Shown in pieces: positions 565 to 46,018 of a DNA stretch of 46,020 nt; within the stretch, counting starts at the first letter, position 1, and the number at the start of each line of letters is the position of its first letter. The position numbers and the translations under genes were made by a program. This DNA comes from Muribaculaceae bacterium (GTDB lineage: Bacteria; Bacteroidota; Bacteroidia; Bacteroidales; Muribaculaceae): contig JAIECF010000026.1 in assembly GCA_029068655.1 (NCBI GenBank), positions 1-46,020 on the forward strand. Reading direction: 5' to 3'. Under the pieces are notes generated by a model, which ran no database searches, was not told where the DNA came from, and saw nothing but the letters and a program-made list of their open reading frames with translations.

Positions 565-3500
565 GTTGGGAGATTAAGAGCAAGAACAACGAGGTCAAGT
601 TTGAGGTCGGGAAGGTAGAGTATAACGACGAATGGATGCAGGAGCGTTATGTAACCGTCACGATCGAATCCCCTGCGCCCATCAACTTTCAGATAGGCGA
701 CTATCTTATCTACAGAGGGGAGAGGTTTGAGATAAACTATGACCCCGGCAAAATCAAGTCGGCAGAGGCATACGACAAGGGAGATGCTTTCCGCTATGAA
801 AACGTGAAGTTCAACTCGCTTGCAGATGAACTGACGCGGTGTGACTTCTTAGATGTTGTTCTCAATGACAACCAACTTCACTTTACCGGGTTGCCCAAAT
901 TCAGTTTCTATGGAGGAGTGAAGACGCTTGCGGATAGGATCCAGGCTAACCTGGACAGGGCTTATCCGGGGATGTGGACTGTGGAATGCCTCTCTAACGG
1001 AGCCGGAGGCTCCGACACCGGGACAAACAGCGATATTGAATTGAATGTCGCAGTTGATACCATCAAGGTGTCGGGTGCGCTGGAGATACTTGTCAATCAA
1101 TTCAAGACATACTACACTATCAAAGGGCGCACACTCACTATCGGGGCGGCTGGCGTTCCGGCTGACCATCTTTTCAAGTATGGCAAGGGTAACGGGCTCT
1201 ATGAAATTGAGGAAAACGCGGAGGCAGACCAGCAGATTGTAACAAGACTTCGCGCCTACGGCTCTACGCGGAATATTCCGCATCGCTATTACAATTCGCT
1301 GACGGACGCTGACGGCGTCAAGCTGATACCCGATAATATGGCGGTGCAGTATCTTATGCTTCCGTCGTTCCCTTATACCACTCAAGACCCCTATATTAAC
1401 TCCAAAAACATTGACGCGCTCGGAGTGAGGGAAGGTACTATCTTCTTTGACGGAAGCGGTGAGTTGGAGGAAATCTACCCATCAATCGAGGGAATGACCG
1501 CAGAGCAACTGAAAGCGGCTGGCGTACCCTGCAATGCCGAGGGCGCGCTTGACGTGCTTGTGAGTGCGGAGCAGATGACTGATAACGGTGTCGGCAAGAT
1601 TGAGGGGGATGCTTTTGAGGGGAACGCTACCACTACGGCAGAGCCGGAGACGTTCAAGGTAACTATAAAAGACGTTGGCTTTGACATCAACGACCATATC
1701 ATTGAGGGCAATTCGGAGAGTCCTACACTTTCCTTCAAGTCCGGAATGCTCGGTGGGCGCGACTTCGAGATTGTGGAGTGCAAGAAGGAGGGTAACAACT
1801 ATGTGCTGGAACTTAACCGCGTCTATGACGAGGATATAAAGTTGTGGTTCCCTTACAAGGATTACAATGCCAAGAAGGATGATAAGTTCGTGCTTCTCAA
1901 TATCCGTATGCCGGAGGTCTATATCAAAGCGGCTTCGCAACGTCTTTTGGAGGCGGCGGAGAAATGGCTGGCTAAGAACGACTATTCACGCTCCATCTAC
2001 GCTCCGAAGATTGACGAGAACTTTATGGCTCGTCAGCATGACGCGGCTATGGCGAGCGGTGGCACTATCAAGAGCCTTCACGATACGCTGTGCGCCGGTA
2101 TGCAGTTGCTTTTCGAGGATGAAGACCTCGGAATAGACGCGGCTATCTTTATCGACCGTCTTACCATCATCGAGGGCGAGGGTTCGATACCGACATACGA
2201 GGTGGTGCTGAAGGAGGAGAAGACTGTCGGACGGCTTGACAAGATGCAGAATCAGATAGATTCGCTCGCGGCAGGGCAGGGGCAGGGTAGCGGTGGCTAC
2301 AACGCTTCGCAGATCCGGAGTCTTATCAACGCCTACGGCGGTCAGCTATTCCTATCCAAACTGAAAGACGATAGGAGCGCGGGCAAGGTCGCATCAGACA
2401 AAGGTTTTGAGGTCGGTGACTTTCTTGCGGGAGTGTCGGGGGCGATGATCGGCATTGACGCGCAGGACGGAGAGTCGTTTGCCGAAGTCGGCAGACTATG
2501 GGTTCGCGTGAAGGCTTACTTTGAGTCGCTTACCATCATAGATGCGCAGACGCTTGCAGGGAAGCAATATATCACTCCGGGAGGGTCGGTTAAGATTACC
2601 TCTGTGGAGGAAGTTTTCACCTCCGACAAACCTGCTTCGCTGAGAGGGTGGCGTTGCTATTTCCTTTCGGAGCAGGACGGAGAAAAGACGGAGACGAAGA
2701 TGATCGTGGGCGATCAGGCGATCTCTGAGATGTTCAACGCTAAAGCTGGAACCTCAAACAAAATAAGTAATCACCGCTATTGGCGATTGGTGACCGGTGT
2801 CAGCAATGACGCATACGAAGAGAACGGCAACCATTACGGCTATATCGAATTGTCAGCTTCTAACTGCGAGGCTGATAGTGACGTGCCCGAAGAAGGTGAC
2901 GTGCTGTGCCAACTCGGTTATCAGGGGACTAACAACGCGGAGAGACAGACGGCGATGGTGTTCTCCACCGTTGACGCGGACGCTCCGAGCATCAAGATGT
3001 ATTCGGGCATCAACTCGTATTCGCTCAACGACAAGGCGATCATATCCTTCGGGCGCGACCCGCTGACAAGCAAGGTCTATTTCCGTCTCGGAAATTCAAG
3101 CGCAAAGCAGTATCTTGACTATACTCAGGACGGAGGCCTTAAATTGGCCGGCGAGTTTTCAATTTTAGCAAATTCTCAGATCGGCGGCAAGTCGGTGGCA
3201 GACTATATTCTTGACATTGCGCCTGACGCCTATGATGATACGGAATTGAGGGACAAGGTGGATGACGCTCAATCTTCCGCTGACACAGCGCAGAGCACAG
3301 CAGACTCGGCCTTGTCGGCGGCAGGCGACGCGCAACAGACGGCAGACAATGCGCAGACCGCGGCCCAGCAGGCTAAGGATGCGGCCGATTCATACAAGTA
3401 TCTGAAGGAATCGCTTCTTGATGCCACTAAAGGCTCCACGCAGATCAGTGGCGGCCTTATCCTCTCGCGGATGATGGCTCTCGGCTATACGGACAATGCC

Positions 3501-6500: not shown

Positions 6501-9278
6501 AAGAACGGAACGAGCATTGTGCCTTTGCAGATTGATACAGATTCCGCAGATGAAATCGGATTGCGATTCAAGATGTCTGGCACTTTTAAAGGTTGGCTCG
6601 GCTATCATCCGACATATGGCACGAATCTATATAATTACACAGCCAAAACATATCTTGGTCTGCGTGACAACGGCAATGCCTATGTCGGAAACAATCTTGT
6701 CCTCACTTCCGCAAACATCGGCAGTTACGCCATCACCTCGCATCAGTCGTTGGCGAATTATGTTGATAGGACTACTGCTCAGACGATTGGAGGAAATAAG
6801 ACATTTACGGGTTGTTCTAGGGTTGAGATGGCGTTGATGTTCAAGGAGAGCAGTACTACTAAGGGTCTGTATTTCACGCCGAACACAGAGGGAGGACTTG
6901 CCATATGCAGACATGAAAGCTATGCTTGGAAGTCTACGCCTATTATTATCGACTATAATGGCGCTATCCACTCGTACTTGACCACTACTTCATATTTGGC
7001 AGGAAACAAGGGCACTGCAATCATTAGCTCCGATGCGACGGGAGGGAAAGGCAGGTACACCATGCTCGCTAAGATGAACTCCACAAACGGAGTAATGACG
7101 TTCGGAACATACGAAAGCAGATTAGAGTTTCACTATACCGCCAATACACTCATTAACGAGGCAAAGAACACTATCTCATGGGGTATCACGCTTCTTGACG
7201 AGGATGGCAACTCCACGTTCAATAAAATCATCAAAAGCGGTGGTACGTCAAGTCAGTTCCTAAAGGCTGACGGAAGTGTAGATGGAACTGCATATCTCCC
7301 TCTGACGGGAGGGACGCTGAATGGTGGTTCTGATACGCCTTTATACCTCAATTCCAATACTACCAATACTTGCTACCTCGGGTTAAAAGCCAGCGGCACT
7401 ATTCTTGGCTATTACGGAGCGAATGCAAATGGCCCCATCTGGTATAAGAGCGGAGCCAACACCATCTGGCACTCCGGCAACGACGGCGCAGGGTCGGGTC
7501 TTGACGCAGATTTGCTGGATGGGGTGCATAACGGGGATTTGACGGCGAAATATCTTGTCGCCATCAATGATGCGACCACCGACCTCAATACTCTTGGGGC
7601 GAAATCGGACAAAATTACATATTATTATGCGGGGGGCGGCTCCACCAACGCAAACCGACCTACGACAGCCCATCCGTTCGGAGTTTTCAATCTCCGTGTC
7701 GCAGACGGATATATGGCTCAGCTTGCAATTCAGTATGGCCGACTATATGCGCGGTATTATGATAGTTCAACATGGGGCGCATGGAATACATTGGCACTCA
7801 CTACCGACAACGTCGCCTCCGCCACCCGTCTGCAAGGCTCCTACTCGCTTTGGGGACAGACGTTCTACGGCAATAATGTGAGCGGAAATATGACGGGGGT
7901 GGGAACCATATCCCGCTCCGGCACGGAAGCCCCTTACTTGCTGGCCGCTTCAACTCCGGCGAACGCAGGAGCTCTCGGAACCGCCGTCGGCATCGGAATC
8001 GCGCCCCTTTCTTACGGAATGTTCTTCTGGGGAGAAGGCACCGGCAAAGGCCACATTCAGGTCGGGCGCAAGGATGGCACTGCCACCGCCTATAATCTCA
8101 TCCTTCAAGAGTTCGGCGGCAACGTCGGAATAGGCACCACCGCACCAGCCTACAAGTTGGATGTCAACGGGACATCACGATTCTCTAATACAATGATAGT
8201 CGCTGTTCCAGATTCATGTGCTAACTATAATCAAGGCATAAGGCTCTACGGCTCGGCTACGGATTCAACATGGTCGTTGATATGCTTCGGATGTGACATT
8301 ACCAAAGCATCAGGCACACATAGCAATCAATGGCTTGTAGGAAGAAGCGAGAATAATGCCTTTGTGATTGACAAAGGAGGTTCGACAGGTGCAAATGGAA
8401 TCATCATTACCGCAGATCTGAAGGTCGGCATCGGCAAGACCAACCCCTCCTATAAACTTGATGTCAACGGAGAGATACGCGCATCGGGATGGCTAAGGCA
8501 GACAGGAATAGCGGGATGGTATAACGAGACCTATGCAGGCGGTTGGTACATGAATGACACCACTTGGATAAAGACATACAACCAAAAGTCCATATACTCA
8601 GGCACGGGAACAATCCGCACCGACGGCGCTTTGCAGGTAGGAGCAAACGGAGCAACGTTCATCGCCACAAATGGCGGAAATGTGGGTATCAACAACACAG
8701 ATCCGACCTACGCCCTTGACGTTACGGGCGACATCCGCGCTTCCGCAAACCTCAGAAGCAACTATCTCTACAGCGGTGGCATTGAGCTGAATGCCCATAA
8801 CACCCCATACATCGACTTCCATTGCAACAAGACGACGGCAGACTACGACGTGCGCCTAATCAATCAGACATCGGGCGAACTGAAATGCGTCGGAACGTTC
8901 CGCGCTACCGTCGGAATGTGGTCGGACGGGTATGTGAGCGCGAGGGGACAGAACACAAGTTCGGACGCAAGGCTGAAACAGAATCTCAATGCCTTTGAGA
9001 TTGCGCTTCATCAGATAGCGAATGCGCCAAGTGTGGCATTTAATTGGAAAAATGGAGGGCATGATGTCGGCTCTATCGCGCAGTATTGGCAGGGCGTGAA
9101 CCCGTTGCTGACGCCTAAAGCCCCCAACGGCTATCTTACATTGCAGTATGGGAAGACGGCGTTGTTGGCTTCGATTTCTATTGCCAAGAAAGTGATTAGC
9201 CATGAGGAAAGGATTGCTCAGTTGGAGAGAGAGAACAAGGAACTTAAACGTAAGATTGAAATTTTGGAAAGGAGGTAA
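561..9278 (+). CDS. Giant tail hub/fibre protein with S74-type C-terminal chaperone domain
   Basis: A 2905-residue protein. The first ~560 residues resemble a tail-hub (Tal-type) domain. An Ala/Gln-rich coiled coil lies around residues 905-945. Then come repeated fibre modules: SGLDDVALS, LAGYGITDA, GDTMTGTL, GGTSSQFLKADGSVD and GNVGIGTT-type units. Four copies of a G-[LIM]-[WY]-[ST]-[DE]-x-[FWY]-x-SARG-x-N motif occur near residues 1138, 1349, 1683 and 2785. The C-terminus from residue ~2800 starts SSDARLKQ and ends in a coiled coil, as in the intramolecular chaperone of endosialidases (peptidase S74), which trimerises the fibre and then self-cleaves near the Ser-Asp. It probably forms the central tail tip and binds the host surface. 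The start is fixed by ATGA coupling to the Dit-like gene. Confidence 0.9.
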   Translation: MSWEIKSKNNEVKFEVGKVEYNDEWMQERYVTVTIESPAPINFQIGDYLIYRGERFEINYDPGKIKSAEAYDKGDAFRYENVKFNSLADELTRCDFLDVVLNDNQLHFTGLPKFSFYGGVKTLADRIQANLDRAYPGMWTVECLSNGAGGSDTGTNSDIELNVAVDTIKVSGALEILVNQFKTYYTIKGRTLTIGAAGVPADHLFKYGKGNGLYEIEENAEADQQIVTRLRAYGSTRNIPHRYYNSLTDADGVKLIPDNMAVQYLMLPSFPYTTQDPYINSKNIDALGVREGTIFFDGSGELEEIYPSIEGMTAEQLKAAGVPCNAEGALDVLVSAEQMTDNGVGKIEGDAFEGNATTTAEPETFKVTIKDVGFDINDHIIEGNSESPTLSFKSGMLGGRDFEIVECKKEGNNYVLELNRVYDEDIKLWFPYKDYNAKKDDKFVLLNIRMPEVYIKAASQRLLEAAEKWLAKNDYSRSIYAPKIDENFMARQHDAAMASGGTIKSLHDTLCAGMQLLFEDEDLGIDAAIFIDRLTIIEGEGSIPTYEVVLKEEKTVGRLDKMQNQIDSLAAGQGQGSGGYNASQIRSLINAYGGQLFLSKLKDDRSAGKVASDKGFEVGDFLAGVSGAMIGIDAQDGESFAEVGRLWVRVKAYFESLTIIDAQTLAGKQYITPGGSVKITSVEEVFTSDKPASLRGWRCYFLSEQDGEKTETKMIVGDQAISEMFNAKAGTSNKISNHRYWRLVTGVSNDAYEENGNHYGYIELSASNCEADSDVPEEGDVLCQLGYQGTNNAERQTAMVFSTVDADAPSIKMYSGINSYSLNDKAIISFGRDPLTSKVYFRLGNSSAKQYLDYTQDGGLKLAGEFSILANSQIGGKSVADYILDIAPDAYDDTELRDKVDDAQSSADTAQSTADSALSAAGDAQQTADNAQTAAQQAKDAADSYKYLKESLLDATKGSTQISGGLILSRMMALGYTDNADMFHILSGMNGAYNDSLGVKTPFLWGGGTMIDLFNPDGTKKTGLTDYAKAMIRMDGSSYFGGGAHAFNADGTGWLGDKDNGIKFDALGRITVGSGVTININNEDKGIKETIESVLNFQLGFENLLTPCDANGNPISWAEATQSDGAGGIKAKSLKANVGLWSESFVSARGRNPWQNSGPVGSTSLSGLDDVALSNLASGQSLVYNGTEWVNQTIQQGLNTTELANYLTTNNYAKTADIQQWVEDKNYLTDHQDIYKLTFQSGVFSAKTYTPNSSAQTVNIPTTTSHISEGANLYFTDARAQSALASTVSALNTAIGTKLPTATFDTFKSGYDSWKSDVDAFIAEFGSMFDKEADSSLPKGYRIKALFGLYTDEFLSARGMNGNSGGGAIGNRLDSWSAYVSGNGDVLSADLGYELKQRIDNLPTTSVNPYALTIQKNGTALGTYDGSSALTINISDVASASALSTHTSNTTIHITATERTLWNQTATNLSAILGSDASGVIDKWDEIVAFLATYTEADTLAGLLSNKADKTTKISAGTGLSGGGDLTANRTLSLATSGVTAGTYFKTTVDAYGRVTAGSNPTTLAGYGITDAYTKTEAEGAFVKKSGDTMTGTLKITNGYLNINGSYITGLDNGGFQFMPKNSLTAEMSKNGFYPIVTMFLGTTTNRWHRLYANSVDVSEKIKIGDGEIIWDAEKGGFKFTHGIYSEEWISARGANASAGGGSLGLDESQLADYLTDHGYATQTWVNTQGFLKSVAWADVTGKPTTLAGYGITDAKIANGVITLGGNSITPLTSHQSLSGYATQSWVQSQGYLTGHQSLSNYVTLNTAQTISAKKTFTGGIAFNQGVSENTAMPFFLGIKAFSDGGDLQWITASKVCAAIGAATASSLANYVTLDGAQTISGVKTYTNGFKLKTDTSWSNSDRTIPFGLNGDSSTIAWYYDNADKGLTFNPSTGALKAGSFVKRGGTSSQFLKADGSVDSNSYALASSLGSYLPLSGGTLKNGTSIVPLQIDTDSADEIGLRFKMSGTFKGWLGYHPTYGTNLYNYTAKTYLGLRDNGNAYVGNNLVLTSANIGSYAITSHQSLANYVDRTTAQTIGGNKTFTGCSRVEMALMFKESSTTKGLYFTPNTEGGLAICRHESYAWKSTPIIIDYNGAIHSYLTTTSYLAGNKGTAIISSDATGGKGRYTMLAKMNSTNGVMTFGTYESRLEFHYTANTLINEAKNTISWGITLLDEDGNSTFNKIIKSGGTSSQFLKADGSVDGTAYLPLTGGTLNGGSDTPLYLNSNTTNTCYLGLKASGTILGYYGANANGPIWYKSGANTIWHSGNDGAGSGLDADLLDGVHNGDLTAKYLVAINDATTDLNTLGAKSDKITYYYAGGGSTNANRPTTAHPFGVFNLRVADGYMAQLAIQYGRLYARYYDSSTWGAWNTLALTTDNVASATRLQGSYSLWGQTFYGNNVSGNMTGVGTISRSGTEAPYLLAASTPANAGALGTAVGIGIAPLSYGMFFWGEGTGKGHIQVGRKDGTATAYNLILQEFGGNVGIGTTAPAYKLDVNGTSRFSNTMIVAVPDSCANYNQGIRLYGSATDSTWSLICFGCDITKASGTHSNQWLVGRSENNAFVIDKGGSTGANGIIITADLKVGIGKTNPSYKLDVNGEIRASGWLRQTGIAGWYNETYAGGWYMNDTTWIKTYNQKSIYSGTGTIRTDGALQVGANGATFIATNGGNVGINNTDPTYALDVTGDIRASANLRSNYLYSGGIELNAHNTPYIDFHCNKTTADYDVRLINQTSGELKCVGTFRATVGMWSDGYVSARGQNTSSDARLKQNLNAFEIALHQIANAPSVAFNWKNGGHDVGSIAQYWQGVNPLLTPKAPNGYLTLQYGKTALLASISIAKKVISHEERIAQLERENKELKRKIEILERR

Positions 9279-30715: not shown

Positions 30716-30864
30716 AAAAGCCCCTTTCATTGCGGTATTCAACGGCAGTAGACGCACGGCAGAAAATAACAACCCAGACATCATGAAACGTCCGTGCGTC
30801 CGACATTCCTTATTCCCGCTTTTTATCCCCTTACGGAGACCGATTCCACTCGGCAGGGGCTTTT
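30716..30864 (-). ncRNA. Structured RNA or leader element upstream of the PAPS-reductase gene
   Basis: The ends AAAAGCCCCT (30716-30725) and AGGGGCTTTT (30855-30864) form a 10-bp closing stem. Inside are a perfect 9-bp stem (GACGCACGG 30751-30759 with CCGTGCGTC 30792-30800) and a small hairpin (CCGA/TCGG, 30840-30853). On the minus strand the outer stem is followed by CTTTTCTTTTT, so it could be a terminated small RNA or a leader controlling the downstream gene. No known riboswitch was recognised. A spurious ORF covers it. Confidence 0.5.
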
Positions 30865-30883: not shown

Positions 30884-30999
30884 TGCAAGCGGAGGGAGTC
30901 GAACCCTCATGGACTTACGAGGTCTTTAGCATCCGGACTCTCAGAACCTCTGCCACCCGATAAAGAATCGGGCGCGTCTGCCAATTCCGCCACGCTTGC
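30884..30999 (-). tRNA. tRNA-like gene with a 47-nt variable region
   Basis: 116 nt. Acceptor GCAAGCG/CGCTTGC (7 bp), D-arm GCG...CGC of leucine-tRNA style, an anticodon-sized arm CCCGA-TTCTTTA-TCGGG in the right place (bases 34-36 CTT, i.e. Lys-type, with an unusual U at 37), and a T-arm GAGGG-TTCGACT-CCCTC. Between anticodon arm and T-arm lie 47 bases instead of 5-20, which can pair as GAGGT/ACCTC. No CCA is encoded. It may be a functional tRNA with an enlarged variable arm, a degraded tRNA, or a tRNA mimic. Confidence 0.5.
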
Positions 31000-31008
31000 T
31001 TGTGAAAA

Positions 31009-31208
31009 CCTGCCTATCCTCACGGACGGGCAGGGTGTAAAAGTGTAGTTTCAAGATTTAACCTACATAAATCGCGGCGCCATCCTCGCGGACATCCGCA
31101 ATACAATAACTTTTATGAATTTCCTAAAATTTGACTTTTGCTGTGTGCCTACAAGATGTGTCACGACCTTATAGACTGTATTTTACCGGGCGTCCTCACG
31201 GATTGCCC
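31009..31208 (-). repeat. Three dispersed GNRA-capped hairpins in non-coding DNA
   Basis: Hairpins at 31009-31034, 31074-31099 and 31188-31208 have different outer stems (CCTGCC/GGCAGG, GCGG/CCGC, GGGC/GCCC) but the same apical part on the minus strand, TCC-G(T/C)GA-GGA, a GNRA tetraloop. The first is followed by TTTT on the minus strand and could terminate transcription before the tRNA-like gene. The whole 31000-31375 stretch has no convincing gene. Confidence 0.6.
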
Positions 31209-31320
31209 TACGGGGAATTAACATGTTTTCTTTAGAGTTAATATCACTATGCTTTAATCGGCACATCATCACGACGTTCCTTAGTCCAATCTTTAAATAG
31301 TATCACTTGCATCATGTGGT

Positions 31321-31352
31321 GCCCGCGAGGGTTCTCGTGTGTCCGCGCGGGC
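31321..31352. repeat. GC-rich hairpin upstream of the 31409 promoter
   Basis: GCCCGCG (31321-31327) pairs with CGCGGGC (31346-31352), ending directly before the -33 box of the plus promoter. It may insulate the plus gene from read-through or act as a regulator site. Confidence 0.5.
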
Positions 31353-31383
31353 TTGGCGTTTCCGCCGATTTTCATTAACTTTG
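31353..31383 (+). promoter_or_regulatory. Bacteroidota-type promoter for the 31409 gene
   Basis: TTG at 31353-31355, 20-base spacer, TAACTTTG at 31376-31383. Predicted start near 31390, about 19 bases before the ATG. Confidence 0.75.
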
Positions 31384-31408
31384 CAGTCGGAAAATAAAAT
31401 AATGAAAT

Positions 31409-31732
31409 ATGGATAAATTTATCGAAAGGGCGAATGAACTGATCGCCCGCCTGGAATCCTTTGGCAACACATCAAGGCTTGATACCATTATCGCCTTGTC
31501 TTGTGCCTCGGAAGACGGAGGTGAATCATACAGAACAAAGAAACACAATAGAGATGCGTTAGAAGACTGTCTGCTTGACACCAAAATCTTACTCTATGAG
31601 TTTAATTGCCCACCGCTTTATGATGAAGCGATGAAGGCTATTGGGTCACAAGATCCCGAAGGTCCTGAGCTTTGTCGCCTTCTTCGGAAACTGATTGAGA
31701 CCGCTGAGCTCCGTAGACAAGGCTGCGACTGA
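31409..31732 (+). CDS. Unknown plus-strand accessory (moron) protein
   Basis: 107 residues, helical and acidic (FIERANELIARLESFG, DCLLDTKILLYEF, LCRLLRKLIETAELRRQGCD), no signal or membrane segment. Like the 19902 gene it faces against the early operon and has its own promoter. Its last 95 bases overlap the end of the convergent 31638 gene. No family recognised. Confidence 0.7.
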   Translation: MDKFIERANELIARLESFGNTSRLDTIIALSCASEDGGESYRTKKHNRDALEDCLLDTKILLYEFNCPPLYDEAMKAIGSQDPEGPELCRLLRKLIETAELRRQGCD

Positions 31733-31925
31733 TTTCCTCAGCCTGCCCCTCTTTATTATATCCGTGACATCGCAGGATTGATTCCAACTGCGATCTTACC
31801 ATCTCCCTTATCTCATCGGCATTGAGAGAGGGAAGTCCGTCTATGCCCATTCCCGTTATATGAAGGTCGCACTCAAAAGACAACTGTATGCCCTTGTTGA
31901 GCCTTGTGTTTACTGATATTTCCAT
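31638..31925 (-). CDS. Hypothetical protein convergent with the 31409 gene
   Basis: 95 residues from the ATG at 31925; a start at 31952 would run into the tRNA-like gene. The body is beta then helical (MEISVNTRLNKGIQLSFECDL..., LNADEIREMVRSQLESIL). The last ~30 residues lie antisense to the end of the plus gene and are less protein-like, so the natural end is uncertain. Function unknown. Confidence 0.55.
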   Translation of the reverse strand: MEISVNTRLNKGIQLSFECDLHITGMGIDGLPSLNADEIREMVRSQLESILRCHGYNKEGQAEEISRSLVYGAQRSQSVSEEGDKAQDLRDLVTQ

Positions 31926-31945
31926 ACTCTTTGAATTTTGATTAG

Positions 31946-32074
31946 CAGCCACAGAAGGATTCGAACCTCCGACCTGCTCAATGTCTTGGATTCCCGTACT
32001 CTGTTTTCAAACCGGGTGTCTATTACCGTTACCACCAAGCCTATGTGCCGCTCTGACCAACTGAGCTATATGGC
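31946..32074 (-). tRNA. tRNA-like gene with a ~78-nt central region
   Basis: 129 nt. Acceptor AGCCATA/TGTGGCT (7 bp with one wobble), TA linker, canonical D-arm GCTC-AGTTGGTCA-GAGC, and T-arm GGAGG-TTCGAAT-CCTTC. The part between D- and T-arm, normally about 23-35 bases, is 78. It shows nested stems CTTGG/CCAAG and CCCG/CGGG and no anticodon arm of normal geometry, so no amino acid can be assigned. Together with the element at 30884 it is a second tRNA-like gene with an expanded centre in the same operon. Confidence 0.5.
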
Positions 32075-32106
32075 TTCCGTAATTATTATGGCAAAATTAG
32101 TAGATG

Positions 32107-32232
32107 CTATGCCAGTTGCCTTATATCGGGTGCGCCGTCATACGCGCTCACTGCCACCCTCGGCTTTCTTATCGTGTCCTTGGTTAATGACCTTACCTGT
32201 ACTCGGCTTTTTACGACCTTTCCTTTTTTCAT
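32107..32232 (-). CDS. Possible 41-residue basic peptide
   Basis: A short ORF beginning MKKGKVVKSRVQVRS and continuing TKDTIRKPRVAV, net very basic, suggesting nucleic-acid binding if real. It is one of two short frames in the otherwise gene-free 32075-32495 stretch. No Shine-Dalgarno or overlap evidence, so confidence is low. Confidence 0.3.
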   Translation of the reverse strand: MKKGKVVKSRVQVRSLTKDTIRKPRVAVSAYDGAPDIRQLA

Positions 32233-32340
32233 CGGTTCAGGTACAAGGACTAAATGTTAAAGGGTTAATCACTCTGCATCATGTTTTCCTGCTCTCGGTT
32301 GATGCGATATAAACCTCACGCCTCGTTTATCGGTCAGACG

Positions 32341-32457
32341 CTACCTCCAGCTATTTCTCATCTTGGCTTGCATAGCCATGTGCCTCATCCTATACACCGT
32401 TTGCGTACAAGGGAACTCCTTGCCGACGTATAGGACCCGCGTTATCATTGTGCTCAT
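32341..32457 (-). CDS. Possible 38-residue peptide
   Basis: A short basic, Met-rich ORF (STMITRVLYVGKEF, MRHMAMQAKMRNSW) starting 39 bases after the 32496 gene. Translation is plausible from position alone; nothing else supports it. Confidence 0.3.
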   Translation of the reverse strand: MSTMITRVLYVGKEFPCTQTVYRMRHMAMQAKMRNSWR

Positions 32458-32495
32458 TTCCGTCACTTGCGGCGGACGGTGTGCCGTTTAGTAAT

Positions 32496-36560: not shown

Positions 36561-36572
36561 TTTTGTGTGATT

Positions 36573-37310
36573 ATGGCAAAAGTAAAACCTATTGAAGGTG
36601 AAATTTGGAAGGTAGCTGAATTGGATTCCAAAGGCACTTATATGGTGTCAAATATGGGGCGCGTTATTGGTCCCAGCGGGAAATTGCTAAAACTTCCCAA
36701 ACTACATGGTTATCCAAAAGTAAAATTTTGGAATGGGCGTTATGTTGATTCCGAATCTGTTCACAGACTCGTAGCAAAAGCCTTCATCCTCAACCCCGAC
36801 AACAAACCCGAAGTGGATCATATAAATACGATACGTGATGATAACCGTGTTGAAAACCTGCGTTGGGTTACAACAAAAGAGAACTTAAACAATCCTCTCA
36901 CAAAAAAGAAATTCAGCGAAGTCCGAAAAGGACACGTTGAGTCTGAGGAATGGAGACGCAATAAATCGCTTGCTCGAATGGGTAAACGATACGCATTGGG
37001 CTACCGATGGACGGCTGAGCAAAGAGCAAGATGTTCTGAAAGACAAAAGGGAGAGGGAAATCCCTTTTACGGGAAGAAACATTCTCCTGAAACCATCGCT
37101 AAAATGTCCGATGCGCATAAGAAAACAGCTCGCAAGGTTCGCCAATATACTCTTGAAGGAGTATTCATACGAGAATTTGAAAGCTCTCGTATGGCGTCTG
37201 AAGAATTGAAAATATGCAAGCGTAATATCAACGCATGCGCGGCGGGACGAGCGAAAACCGCCGGAGGATTCGTATGGGAATACGTAGGAAAGGAGGTGAG
37301 AAATGCCTAA
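36573..37310 (+). CDS. HNH homing-type endonuclease
   Basis: 245 residues from the ATG at 36573 (a GTG two codons earlier is less likely). Domains in order: NUMOD4-like (about 8-50, EGEIWKVAELDSKGTYMVSNMGRV), HNH core (about 62-105, VHRLVAKAFI...EVDHINTIRDDNRVENLRWVT, with the catalytic DH), NUMOD3-like DNA-binding repeat (GNPFYGKKHSPETIAKMS) and an IENR/NUMOD1 end (GVFIREFESSRMASEEL... GGFVWEYV). Free-standing enzymes of this kind cut a specific site and copy themselves by repair. It overlaps the tape measure gene by eight bases. Confidence 0.88.
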   Translation: MAKVKPIEGEIWKVAELDSKGTYMVSNMGRVIGPSGKLLKLPKLHGYPKVKFWNGRYVDSESVHRLVAKAFILNPDNKPEVDHINTIRDDNRVENLRWVTTKENLNNPLTKKKFSEVRKGHVESEEWRRNKSLARMGKRYALGYRWTAEQRARCSERQKGEGNPFYGKKHSPETIAKMSDAHKKTARKVRQYTLEGVFIREFESSRMASEELKICKRNINACAAGRAKTAGGFVWEYVGKEVRNA

Positions 37311-44436: not shown

Positions 44437-45699
44437 TTATTCTTTCCCATATAGTACATAGTTGAGAACGCGACGGTTGGCTTCATCCATCTTCTTCAGA
44501 TCGCGCTTGATGTATATGGCAGTAGTGGGATTCGTACCGCCGCTATGTCCGAGGGCAAGCGATATGGTTGCGTCGGGAATGTCAAGATCCGCCGCCAATG
44601 TAGCCCAGGAATGTCTCGCCCAATATGTCTGCAATTCCGGGAACGCCGGGGTTATCTTTATTTTCCCTCCGCGCCCCGGCACCTTCTGACGCTTGCCGAT
44701 CTTTTTAAGGGTAATGTTCATGTATTTATTGAACTCCTTCGGATTCGGCCATCTGTCGGCTATGCAGAGCAAATTCTTCTCGCCCTTCCATCTTTCGATT
44801 ATCTCCATCGCCTCCGGCTCTACCTTTATGGAATATAGGCGGTGCGTCTTTGCCCTCCGATACTCAATTCTGCCGTCAACTATCTCTGTAAGGTTGTAGA
44901 GATCAGTTGAGTTGATGCCTATGAGCATGAATATCAACTTGAACATGTCAAGGTATATTTTCTGATACTCCTCCACCGGATAATCGAAGAGTTCTCGCAG
45001 GCTCTCAATCGTCATTGAACGCTTGCGAGTTTCCTCCGGGTGTATCTTGAAGCGACGGAAGGGATATTTCTCAGTCAGTTCCTCGTCGATTGCGCGGTTG
45101 ATGACAGTGCGGATATTCTTGAAATGGATATTGCGCGAGTTCTGCTTCAAGTCATCTTTTACCATCCACTCATCAAAGGCGTTGAGCCATCTGAGTGATA
45201 TATCTTCAAATGTCAGTTCGTCGAACGGCTTGCCGTGGTCTGAGTCCTTATCGGCACAGAACGCCTGCATCTTCTTGAAGGTGGATTCGATGGAAGCCTT
45301 GTACCCTTTATTGGCTTTCGCGTTCATACGTTTCTCATAGAACTTTCCGAACAGTTTTGTTTCATTCTCCTTCCGCTTTTCCTCTTCATCTTGATCTATT
45401 GCTTCCGATGCAGAGATTCTTCCCTTCACCAACTTCCCGAGTTGCTTTATCTCCATATTGTCAAGGTCGGTGTTGTCGCGGATAAAATCCAGCTGAATCT
45501 CCTTCAGGCGTTTCCTGACATCGCCTAAAGTAGACGAGAGGTATATGTTTTCAACTTTTGGAGAATCCGACAGGGCATCATCCAGCTGCTCTGCGGTAGC
45601 CTCATACCCAAGGCTCCATTCTACTTTCTTGCGGTTGTTGGTAATCCTAAGTTGAATAGCCTTACTTGTTGGTTTTAAGAAGAATTTGAACGTAAACAT
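44437..45699 (-). CDS. int: Tyrosine recombinase integrase
   Basis: 420 residues. An N-terminal arm-binding-type domain (1-95), a core-binding helical domain (about 112-215, FGKFYEKRMNAKANKGY...) and the catalytic domain (225-410). Visible catalytic residues: Lys284 (RRAKT), Arg362 in YWARHSWAT, His385 in LGHS, nucleophile Tyr396 (AIYIKRD). The first catalytic Arg is not at its usual place (GINSTDL, Asn263) and the HxxR His is Tyr359. Members of the Bacteroides IntDOT group also lack the first Arg. It would integrate the phage, most likely into the adjacent tRNA-Ala gene. Confidence 0.92.
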   Translation of the reverse strand: MFTFKFFLKPTSKAIQLRITNNRKKVEWSLGYEATAEQLDDALSDSPKVENIYLSSTLGDVRKRLKEIQLDFIRDNTDLDNMEIKQLGKLVKGRISASEAIDQDEEEKRKENETKLFGKFYEKRMNAKANKGYKASIESTFKKMQAFCADKDSDHGKPFDELTFEDISLRWLNAFDEWMVKDDLKQNSRNIHFKNIRTVINRAIDEELTEKYPFRRFKIHPEETRKRSMTIESLRELFDYPVEEYQKIYLDMFKLIFMLIGINSTDLYNLTEIVDGRIEYRRAKTHRLYSIKVEPEAMEIIERWKGEKNLLCIADRWPNPKEFNKYMNITLKKIGKRQKVPGRGGKIKITPAFPELQTYWARHSWATLAADLDIPDATISLALGHSGGTNPTTAIYIKRDLKKMDEANRRVLNYVLYGKE

Positions 45700-45925: not shown

Positions 45926-45944
45926 ACAAATCTAATTTTTTAAG

Positions 45945-46018
45945 TGGAGCATATCGGACTCGAACCGACCACCTCTTGACTGCCAGTCAAACGCTCTAGC
46001 CAGATGAGCTAATGCCCC
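45945..46018 (-). tRNA. tRNA-Ala (GGC anticodon)
   Basis: 74 nt: acceptor GGGGCAT/ATGCTCC, D-arm GCTC...GAGC, anticodon arm TTTGA-CTGGCAG-TCAAG with anticodon GGC, T-arm GTCGG-TTCGAGT-CCGAT (one weak pair). Discriminator A, no encoded CCA. Its 3' end points toward the integrase, the usual arrangement when a phage has integrated at a tRNA 3' end. Confidence 0.9.

Follow-up and report, generated by a model that had tools for sequence, protein, structure and literature searches.

Two tRNA-shaped elements with exchangeable centres in a Muribaculaceae prophage, read as probable non-decoding phage RNAs

Results

Locus and anatomy of the elements

The stretch of DNA analysed here (the window) comprises 46,020 nucleotides of a Muribaculaceae bacterium (contig JAIECF010000026.1, assembly GCA_029068655.1) and, judging by its gene content, is a prophage of a temperate phage at a contig end. 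An integrase-like gene with a tRNA-Ala(ggc) gene beside it is accompanied by genes for a Rha/Ant-type antirepressor, an exonuclease VIII-like protein, a RecT-like protein and a phosphoadenosine phosphosulfate (PAPS) reductase. The subject of this work is a pair of tRNA-like elements with enlarged centres, E1 and E2. Both are on the minus strand, flanked by the antirepressor gene on one side and by the genes for the PAPS reductase, exonuclease and RecT-like protein on the other, and all of these genes have the same orientation as the elements (Table 1). A copy of the tRNA-Ala gene with an equal score lies at the end of another contig (G000:C1:2-75; handles of this kind are our own labels for genomes and contigs, the window being G000:C179); this pattern is expected for the two ends of an integration into that tRNA gene, the match being one of scores alone.

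At the level of sequence, both elements display the features of a tRNA: a 7-bp acceptor stem, a D-arm and a 5-bp T-arm with a TTCRA loop. The letters of E1 agree with an earlier, preliminary description of this DNA, which reported an ordinary-sized arm with the loop TTCTTTA and formal anticodon CTT, followed by 47 nt in place of the variable loop. E2 is present as described there, except that it is one base longer at its 5′ end (32075) and has 79 nt between its D- and T-arms. The same description mentioned nested stems in the E2 centre. Of two candidate stems there, CCCG/CGGG is part of the best fold. Because the other, CTTGG/CCAAG, is missing from that fold, the predicted nesting across 31985..32039 is tentative.

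Table 1 Features of the window (positions are those of the window; RF00005 is the Rfam tRNA model, R1 a covariance model described in the text)
Feature	Position	Strand	Remark
E1, tRNA-like with tRNA-Leu-like ends, 115 nt plus discriminator A	30884..30999	-	RF00005 47.1 bits; R1 40.7 bits
E1 acceptor 3′ strand CGCTTGC	30885..30891	-	
E1 T-arm GAGGG-TTCGACT-CCCTC	30892..30908	-	absent from unconstrained best fold
E1 47-nt region replacing variable loop	30909..30955	-	centre differs in three counterparts
E1 arm CCCGA-TTCTTTA-TCGGG, 5 bp/7 nt	30956..30972	-	formal anticodon CTT, T at 37
E1 D-arm, tRNA-Leu type, GCGGAATTGGCAGACGC	30974..30990	-	
E1 acceptor 5′ strand GCAAGCG	30993..30999	-	7/7 Watson-Crick with 30885-30891
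Small open reading frame (ORF), 95 aa from ATG	31638..31925	-	begins 21 nt after E2
E2, tRNA-like, 129 nt plus discriminator G	31946..32075	-	RF00005 45.3 bits; three same-place counterparts
E2 acceptor 3′ strand TGTGGCT	31947..31953	-	one G-U in stem
E2 T-arm GGAGG-TTCGAAT-CCTTC, one G-U	31954..31970	-	both-sided changes at 4/5 pairs, 4 copies
E2 centre, 79 nt, replaces anticodon arm and variable loop	31971..32049	-	no canonical anticodon arm
E2 nested stem CTTGG/CCAAG (tentative)	32035-32039 with 31985-31989	-	not in best fold
E2 nested stem CCCG/CGGG	32013-32016 with 31993-31996	-	present in best fold
E2 D-arm GCTC-AGTTGGTCA-GAGC	32050..32066	-	read from sequence
E2 acceptor 5′ strand AGCCATA	32069..32075	-	both-sided changes at positions 5, 6, 7 among 4 copies
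Integrase-like gene	44437-45699		
tRNA-Ala(ggc)	45944-46018		beside integrase

Detection against chance

The Rfam tRNA model RF00005 (cut-off 29 bits) detects E1 at 47.1 bits and E2 at 45.3 bits, which bears out the earlier claim of two tRNA-like genes with enlarged centres; no other Rfam family was reported over the places of the elements in the window or in the related loci scanned. ARAGORN calls neither element when run without introns and, with introns, reads E1 as Leu(cag) or Lys(ctt), each with 23 nt, and E2 as Val(gac) or Ala(ggc), each with 56 nt.

A strict scan for an acceptor stem joined to a T-arm finds three places in the window (E1, E2 and the tRNA-Ala gene), as against two in total over 100 dinucleotide shuffles. 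Applied to 27 loci (375,585 bases), consisting of the window, 16 stretches picked for carrying or adjoining elements and 10 viral loci, it gives 26 hits, three of which were dropped (the tRNA-Ala gene and two alternative long readings); ten mononucleotide shuffles of these loci give 0 or 1 hit, and the reversed sequence 2. Seven of its eight hits in 127 unrelated loci (978,288 bases) are ordinary-looking tRNAs, and the scan has no hit in 464,988 bases from 48 further viral loci, among them all 13 that share a relationship through the PAPS reductase. A looser scan that accepts any T-loop yields 72 hits versus 62 in reversed sequence and is too noisy to serve as a detector; only elements that recurred, or that were also flagged by a model or by Rfam, were kept from it by judgement. 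When nine typed elements were folded singly, the acceptor stem appeared in all nine best folds and the T-arm in eight, the exception being the window's E1.

Counterparts at the same place

A 1,451-base query of the region matched 12 of 200 relatives, with both elements present on three contigs of two genomes (G051:C3, G051:C30 and G090:C128). The DNA match to the window is interrupted inside E1 on all three contigs and inside E2 on two of them: the ends align, and the centres differ. E2 measures 129 nt in the window and in G051:C3, whose centres are almost the same; it is shorter in G090 (94 nt) and longer in G051:C30 (194 nt). Three unrelated centres, ranging from 44 to 144 nt, occur among the four copies; those of the window, G090 and G051:C30 have no common sequence by eye. 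The E2 copies were placed by the DNA matches that flank the centre, and all 12 pairs of the acceptor and T-stem are standard in all four (48/48 cells), their exact ends being taken from ARAGORN and the scan, both of which require pairing. Changes on both sides of a pair occur at seven of these 12 pairs among the four copies, three of them consecutive in the acceptor stem of G090. The anticodon-like arm is a 7-bp stem in the E2 of G090 and, in that of G051:C30, a 12-pair stem topped by a multibranch loop.

The three counterparts of E1 keep the acceptor stem GYAAGCG/CGCTTGC and the T-arm, and combine them with a long middle arm and a D-type arm of another kind, in which a 6-bp stem closes the loop ATTCGGAGC. 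A further case is a syntenic 87-nt element of G241 and G399 in which four of 25 pairs are changed on both sides, two of them inside an extended anticodon arm, and none is broken, as compared with changes at 11 of 37 unpaired bases; a pattern written for this element and run on 397 genomes found only these two, both already known. As judged from such sequence comparisons, selection retains the acceptor stem and T-arm even as centres are swapped, and several classes have a centre that is a conserved structure in its own right. The random decay of stems in relatives that the preliminary description named as fatal to its reading is the opposite of what is seen, since compensatory changes retain the stems.

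The ends of E1 have a close relative among ordinary tRNAs. The 24-nt string formed by its T-arm and acceptor strand recurs exactly in five of 297 relatives (six places including the window) and in one 323-kb viral contig, L054, where it is part of an ordinary tRNA-Leu(GAG) gene (1910-1991, minus strand) in a run of 21 tRNA genes. The 25-nt 3′ part of E1 is identical to that of this gene and the 27-nt 5′ part is one inserted base apart, the inserted base lying in the D-arm. Because its ends match so nearly exactly, the window's E1 looks like a tRNA-Leu with an exchanged middle, and the L054 gene is a possible source of it.

A wider class of elements

The covariance model R1 was built from six E1 homologues, excluding the E1 of the window, which it detects at 40.7 bits. 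Of 397 genomes of the family, 59 have an R1 hit at E 0.01 or better, and many of these hits are ordinary tRNA-Leu genes of about 81 nt. Among the hits read, non-canonical elements occur in 12 genomes (G000, G023, G071, G090, G120, G227, G241, G341, G399, G401, G445 and G456); G051, outside that search's listing, is a thirteenth. The E1 class is represented by 16 R1 hits with E no higher than 2e-6, a set that includes the six training sequences. Pairing holds in 96.8% of its 347 cells, compared to 79.4% in shuffles and 43.8-51.9% in slid controls, a figure that leans towards structure because the alignment was fitted to the model; 19 of 25 pairs have both-sided changes. When the E1 model was run on 295 genomes of the order, three had a hit, namely the window's own and two with an ordinary tRNA-Leu(UAG) gene.

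There are two classes besides E1. The first (a) is E2-like: the D-arm is ordinary and the anticodon arm is extended, as in the 87-nt pair described above, and also includes a 121-nt element of G341 that has a 5-bp anticodon stem with a long insert and scores 57.6 bits with Rfam. The second (b) combines various stems with the D-type loop GAAAYGCC and, mostly, the T-type loop GUCGCA. A short module, which reads by eye approximately GCC-GNAA-GGC-UGAURACANUAGGA, recurs among E1-type elements in their anticodon-like arm. Viral contigs have it too, L258 within an E2-type element and L249 as free stems, and a search of the window for it found none. As a motif pattern it marks 25 stretches in viral contigs, two of which carry strict-scan elements, and the pattern CNNNCGATTCGGAGCCGNNNGG is accompanied by a tRNA-like element in four among the 131 loci listed.

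Altogether 45 elements were compiled. The strict scan supplied 29, and the other 16 are known only through Rfam, the covariance model or the noisy loose scan. Their 5′ acceptor strands are of 30 different sequences, every one of the four bases serves as discriminator (A in 24, G in 14, C in 5 and T in 2), and they occur up to seven to a locus, with several loci holding three to seven close together. None of the 45 has a canonical anticodon arm, defined as 5 bp and 7 nt with U33 and a purine at 37, whereas 41 of 59 tRNA-sized hits in control loci have one, and 50 of 59 do with one mismatch (a few of these hits are double readings). Neither E1 nor E2 acquires such an arm when one mismatch is allowed; E1 has an arm with U33 but T at 37, and the earlier statement that E2 lacks an ordinary anticodon arm holds also when parts of its centre are excised. 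In this excision test any one stretch of the centre was deleted in silico, under the full rule or under a relaxed rule that admits one mismatch and any base at 37. No deletion gives E2 a canonical arm in any of its four copies, even under the relaxed rule, and none gives E1 one under the full rule. The anticodon is not kept between homologues either: for the two 129-nt E2s, ARAGORN proposes gac with 56 nt in the window and tac with 44 nt in G051:C3.

Proteins adjoining the elements were searched in 20 queries, with 7 of 10 matching PHROGs (exonucleases, a Gp2.5-like protein, a replication initiator, large terminase, an invertase) and 6 of 10 matching Pfam families (DNA polymerase A, S24-like peptidase, Sipho_Gp157, rve, PD-(D/E)XK, AAA). 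Known phages gave no match to the window region or to loci L237 and L266. In L236 a single stretch, the element at 8005-8074, is matched by five records; it resembles, at 80-84%, genes annotated as tRNA-Ile in phages of E. coli, Pectobacterium and Enterobacter. E1 and E2 are no isolated pair and belong to a varied set of such elements in bacteria and phages related to theirs.

Separately, two long tRNA arrays of other genomes (L281 1317-1392 and L282 243-318, minus strand) share a near-identical 76-nt element whose acceptor stem and T-arm are perfect, and which is without a canonical anticodon arm also when one mismatch is allowed.

Neighbouring features

Several other features surround the two elements. 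The minus-strand stretch 32096-32480, upstream of E2, is conserved well in G051:C3 and G090 and diverged in G051:C30; a consensus fold of the four sequences, made with no shuffled control, has 65 pairs, 14 of them with both-sided changes, and the stretch, which has no Rfam match, is a candidate structured RNA. A second candidate, at 30725-30850 on the same strand just 3′ of E1, has the motifs GCGGGAATAAG ... GAATACCGCAATGAAAGGGGC; in G090 its counterpart is likewise downstream of E1, and in G401 it is on the upstream side. Three TCC-GYGA-GGA hairpins stand between E1 and E2 on the minus strand (31016, 31082 and 31192); two similar hairpins in viral locus L258 match the Bacteroides small RNA BTnc201 at 24.8 bits, far under the cut-off of 105. 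On the plus strand, a 107-aa gene at 31409-31732, antisense to the E1-E2 interval, has no PHROG match; two relatives carry a counterpart, one of 60% and the other of 30% identity. An HNH/NUMOD homing-endonuclease-like gene (36567-37310, plus strand) directly precedes a 2225-aa ORF without a Pfam match.

Discussion

Interpretation and alternatives

Considering (i) the retention of the acceptor stem and T-arm by compensatory changes, (ii) the exchange of the centres, and (iii) the lack of a canonical anticodon arm, we propose, with a probability of roughly 60%, that E1 and E2 are small RNAs of a temperate phage, tRNA-like in shape yet non-decoding, in which the centre is an exchangeable payload. 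The phage tRNA mimic, one of several readings put forward in the preliminary description, fits this proposal. The acceptor stem, D-type arm and T-arm would be kept under selection, with the anticodon arm and variable loop swapped for the payload. The acceptor stem and T-arm are the main parts of a tRNA that are read by RNase P, by RNase Z and by the CCA-adding enzyme, and because of this the elements should be matured as tRNAs. They would be transcribed together with the early genes of the same strand and processed by the tRNA enzymes of the host into stable RNAs, which may act in trans, either via the central arm or with the whole RNA serving as a decoy for a tRNA-handling factor. The payload or the whole shape would thereby engage a host or phage factor; a decoy role, in particular, is possible. 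A more far-reaching suggestion, which we put forward tentatively, is that Bacteroidales temperate phages carry a natural repertoire of tRNA scaffolds: early RNAs passing through host tRNA maturation, with fast-evolving payloads swapped as cassettes, which act as decoys or regulators of tRNA-handling factors, including tRNA-attacking defence.

A number of observations weigh against the proposal. Single-sequence folding does not favour a tRNA shape for E1 or E2: the predicted folding energy relative to shuffles has z = -2.06 for E1 and +0.08 for E2, the unconstrained best fold of E1 is without the T-arm, that of E2 loses the D-arm by pairing its 5′ strand with TGAGC at the end of the centre, and imposing the tRNA-like stems costs 2.8 kcal/mol (E1) and 0.6 kcal/mol (E2). 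Energy gaps this small are within the error of folding programs and lend no support to the tRNA shape either. The 45 elements were partly picked for their odd look, 16 are without strict-scan support, ordinary tRNAs on the same contigs were excluded from them (Leu in L229, Val in L233, Met in L270), and the one-mismatch anticodon test covers only E1 and E2 among them. Under the relaxed excision rule E1 has 45 solutions compared to a shuffled mean of 8.93, a number reached by 3 of 300 shuffles. The 30 acceptor strands and four discriminator bases argue against one aminoacyl-tRNA synthetase as the partner. Finally, neither centre has an antisense match in the window beyond chance: the longest are 9-10 nt, a length reached by 186 and 198 of 200 shuffles.

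The strongest rival is a signal acting in cis, in which RNase P and RNase Z would excise the elements from an early polycistronic transcript. The cuts would determine where neighbouring mRNAs end and how stable they are, the excised RNA being a by-product. The arrangement of genes lends this some appeal: in the window the ATG of a small ORF comes 21 nt after the end of E2, G090 and G051:C30 likewise have small ORFs behind E2, and a CC-ATG comes directly after the E1 of G051:C30. A variable, structured, module-bearing centre is unnecessary for such punctuation, however; several loci hold three to seven elements near one another, and the PAPS-reductase start in the window is 188 nt away from E1. 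We regard this explanation as unlikely.

Far less probable is that E1 and E2 are working tRNAs from which a small insertion or intron is removed before use, another of the earlier suggestions. Group I introns are known in the anticodon loops of tRNA-Leu, and the ARAGORN readings Leu(cag) and Val(gac) can be cited in its favour. Yet these readings disagree between the two 129-nt E2s, and the E2 centres of the window, G090 and G051:C30 are by eye without common sequence. Enumerated excision led us to reject the model for E2 and, under the full rule only, for E1. Because of the excess of relaxed solutions noted above, the excision test leaves room for an insert in E1, and for this element the different centres of its counterparts weigh more than the test does.

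We attach just as little credence to unusual decoding tRNAs used unchanged, with E1 as a Leu-bodied tRNA that has the anticodon CUU and a 47-nt variable arm. The clean 5-bp/7-nt arm with U33 and the near-identity of the ends of E1 to those of a phage tRNA-Leu(GAG), one inserted base aside, would suit such a tRNA, as opposed to T at position 37 and the lack of any such arm in the E1 counterparts or in E2.

That the elements are decaying tRNA genes or assembly debris, as might be supposed of two sequences so far from canonical in a genome of 264 contigs, is the least credible explanation and is largely contradicted already: decay was rejected on the covariation in the conserved stems of relatives, elements stand at the same place in other assemblies, and 12 of the 397 genomes sampled from the family have non-canonical ones.

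Relation to known systems

A tRNA-like end joined to a non-tRNA centre is also the plan of tmRNA, of which ARAGORN and Rfam find none in the window. ROOL and GOLLD, too, are structured non-coding RNAs that phages and prophages carry, in many cases close to tRNA islands; they differ from E1 and E2 in being far larger (many GOLLD exceed 800 nt) and not tRNA-shaped (PMC12286853). Neither has an Rfam match in the window or in the related loci scanned. Phage tRNAs that withstand a host anticodon nuclease through an altered anticodon arm, such as the tRNA-Lys of T5 facing PARIS as summarised in PMC11455837, still decode, whereas E1 and E2 are without a usable anticodon arm. Closer in kind is tRNA-Other of Bacillus cereus, a pseudo-tRNA that, according to the excerpt of PMC3399842 on which we draw, is thought to work outside translation and has been proposed to be the tRNA-like part of a larger regulatory RNA. 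It resembles E1 and E2 in its tRNA shape and suggested non-translational role, and differs in having a Trp anticodon and in flanking a genomic island; an exchanged centre is not described in that excerpt. Listings and abstract openings of the open-licence literature do not describe the class reported here, which, with subscription papers outside that scope, is no proof of its being unpublished.

The nearest known case is RNA C (species 1 RNA) of phage T4. RNA C and RNA D are small phage RNAs annotated as 'small, stable RNA', whose role is given as unknown in PMC3014915 and PMC9697503. RNA C is 139 nt long and, like E1 and E2, has a TTCRA T-arm (CCGGG-TTCGAAT-CCCGG) near its 3′ end, followed by an acceptor-like 3′ strand. 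This strand, however, pairs with an internal stretch (a 91-nt hit of the strict scan) and not with the annotated 5′ end, and RNA C belongs to the tRNA cluster of a lytic phage and is classed as late; RNA D has no such hit in the strict scan. R1 matches RNA C weakly (16.2 bits, E 7e-4 in 4 kb), the R1 search and strict scan give no evidence of common descent, and we do not place E1 and E2 as members of an RNA C family. Because tRNA finders miss such genes or assign them doubtful isotypes, a class of small phage RNAs may sit unseen in gut genomes. With many examples that have exchangeable centres, the long-standing puzzle of T4 RNA C gains a comparative frame, within which it can be asked what a phage gains from a tRNA-like RNA that is unable to read codons.

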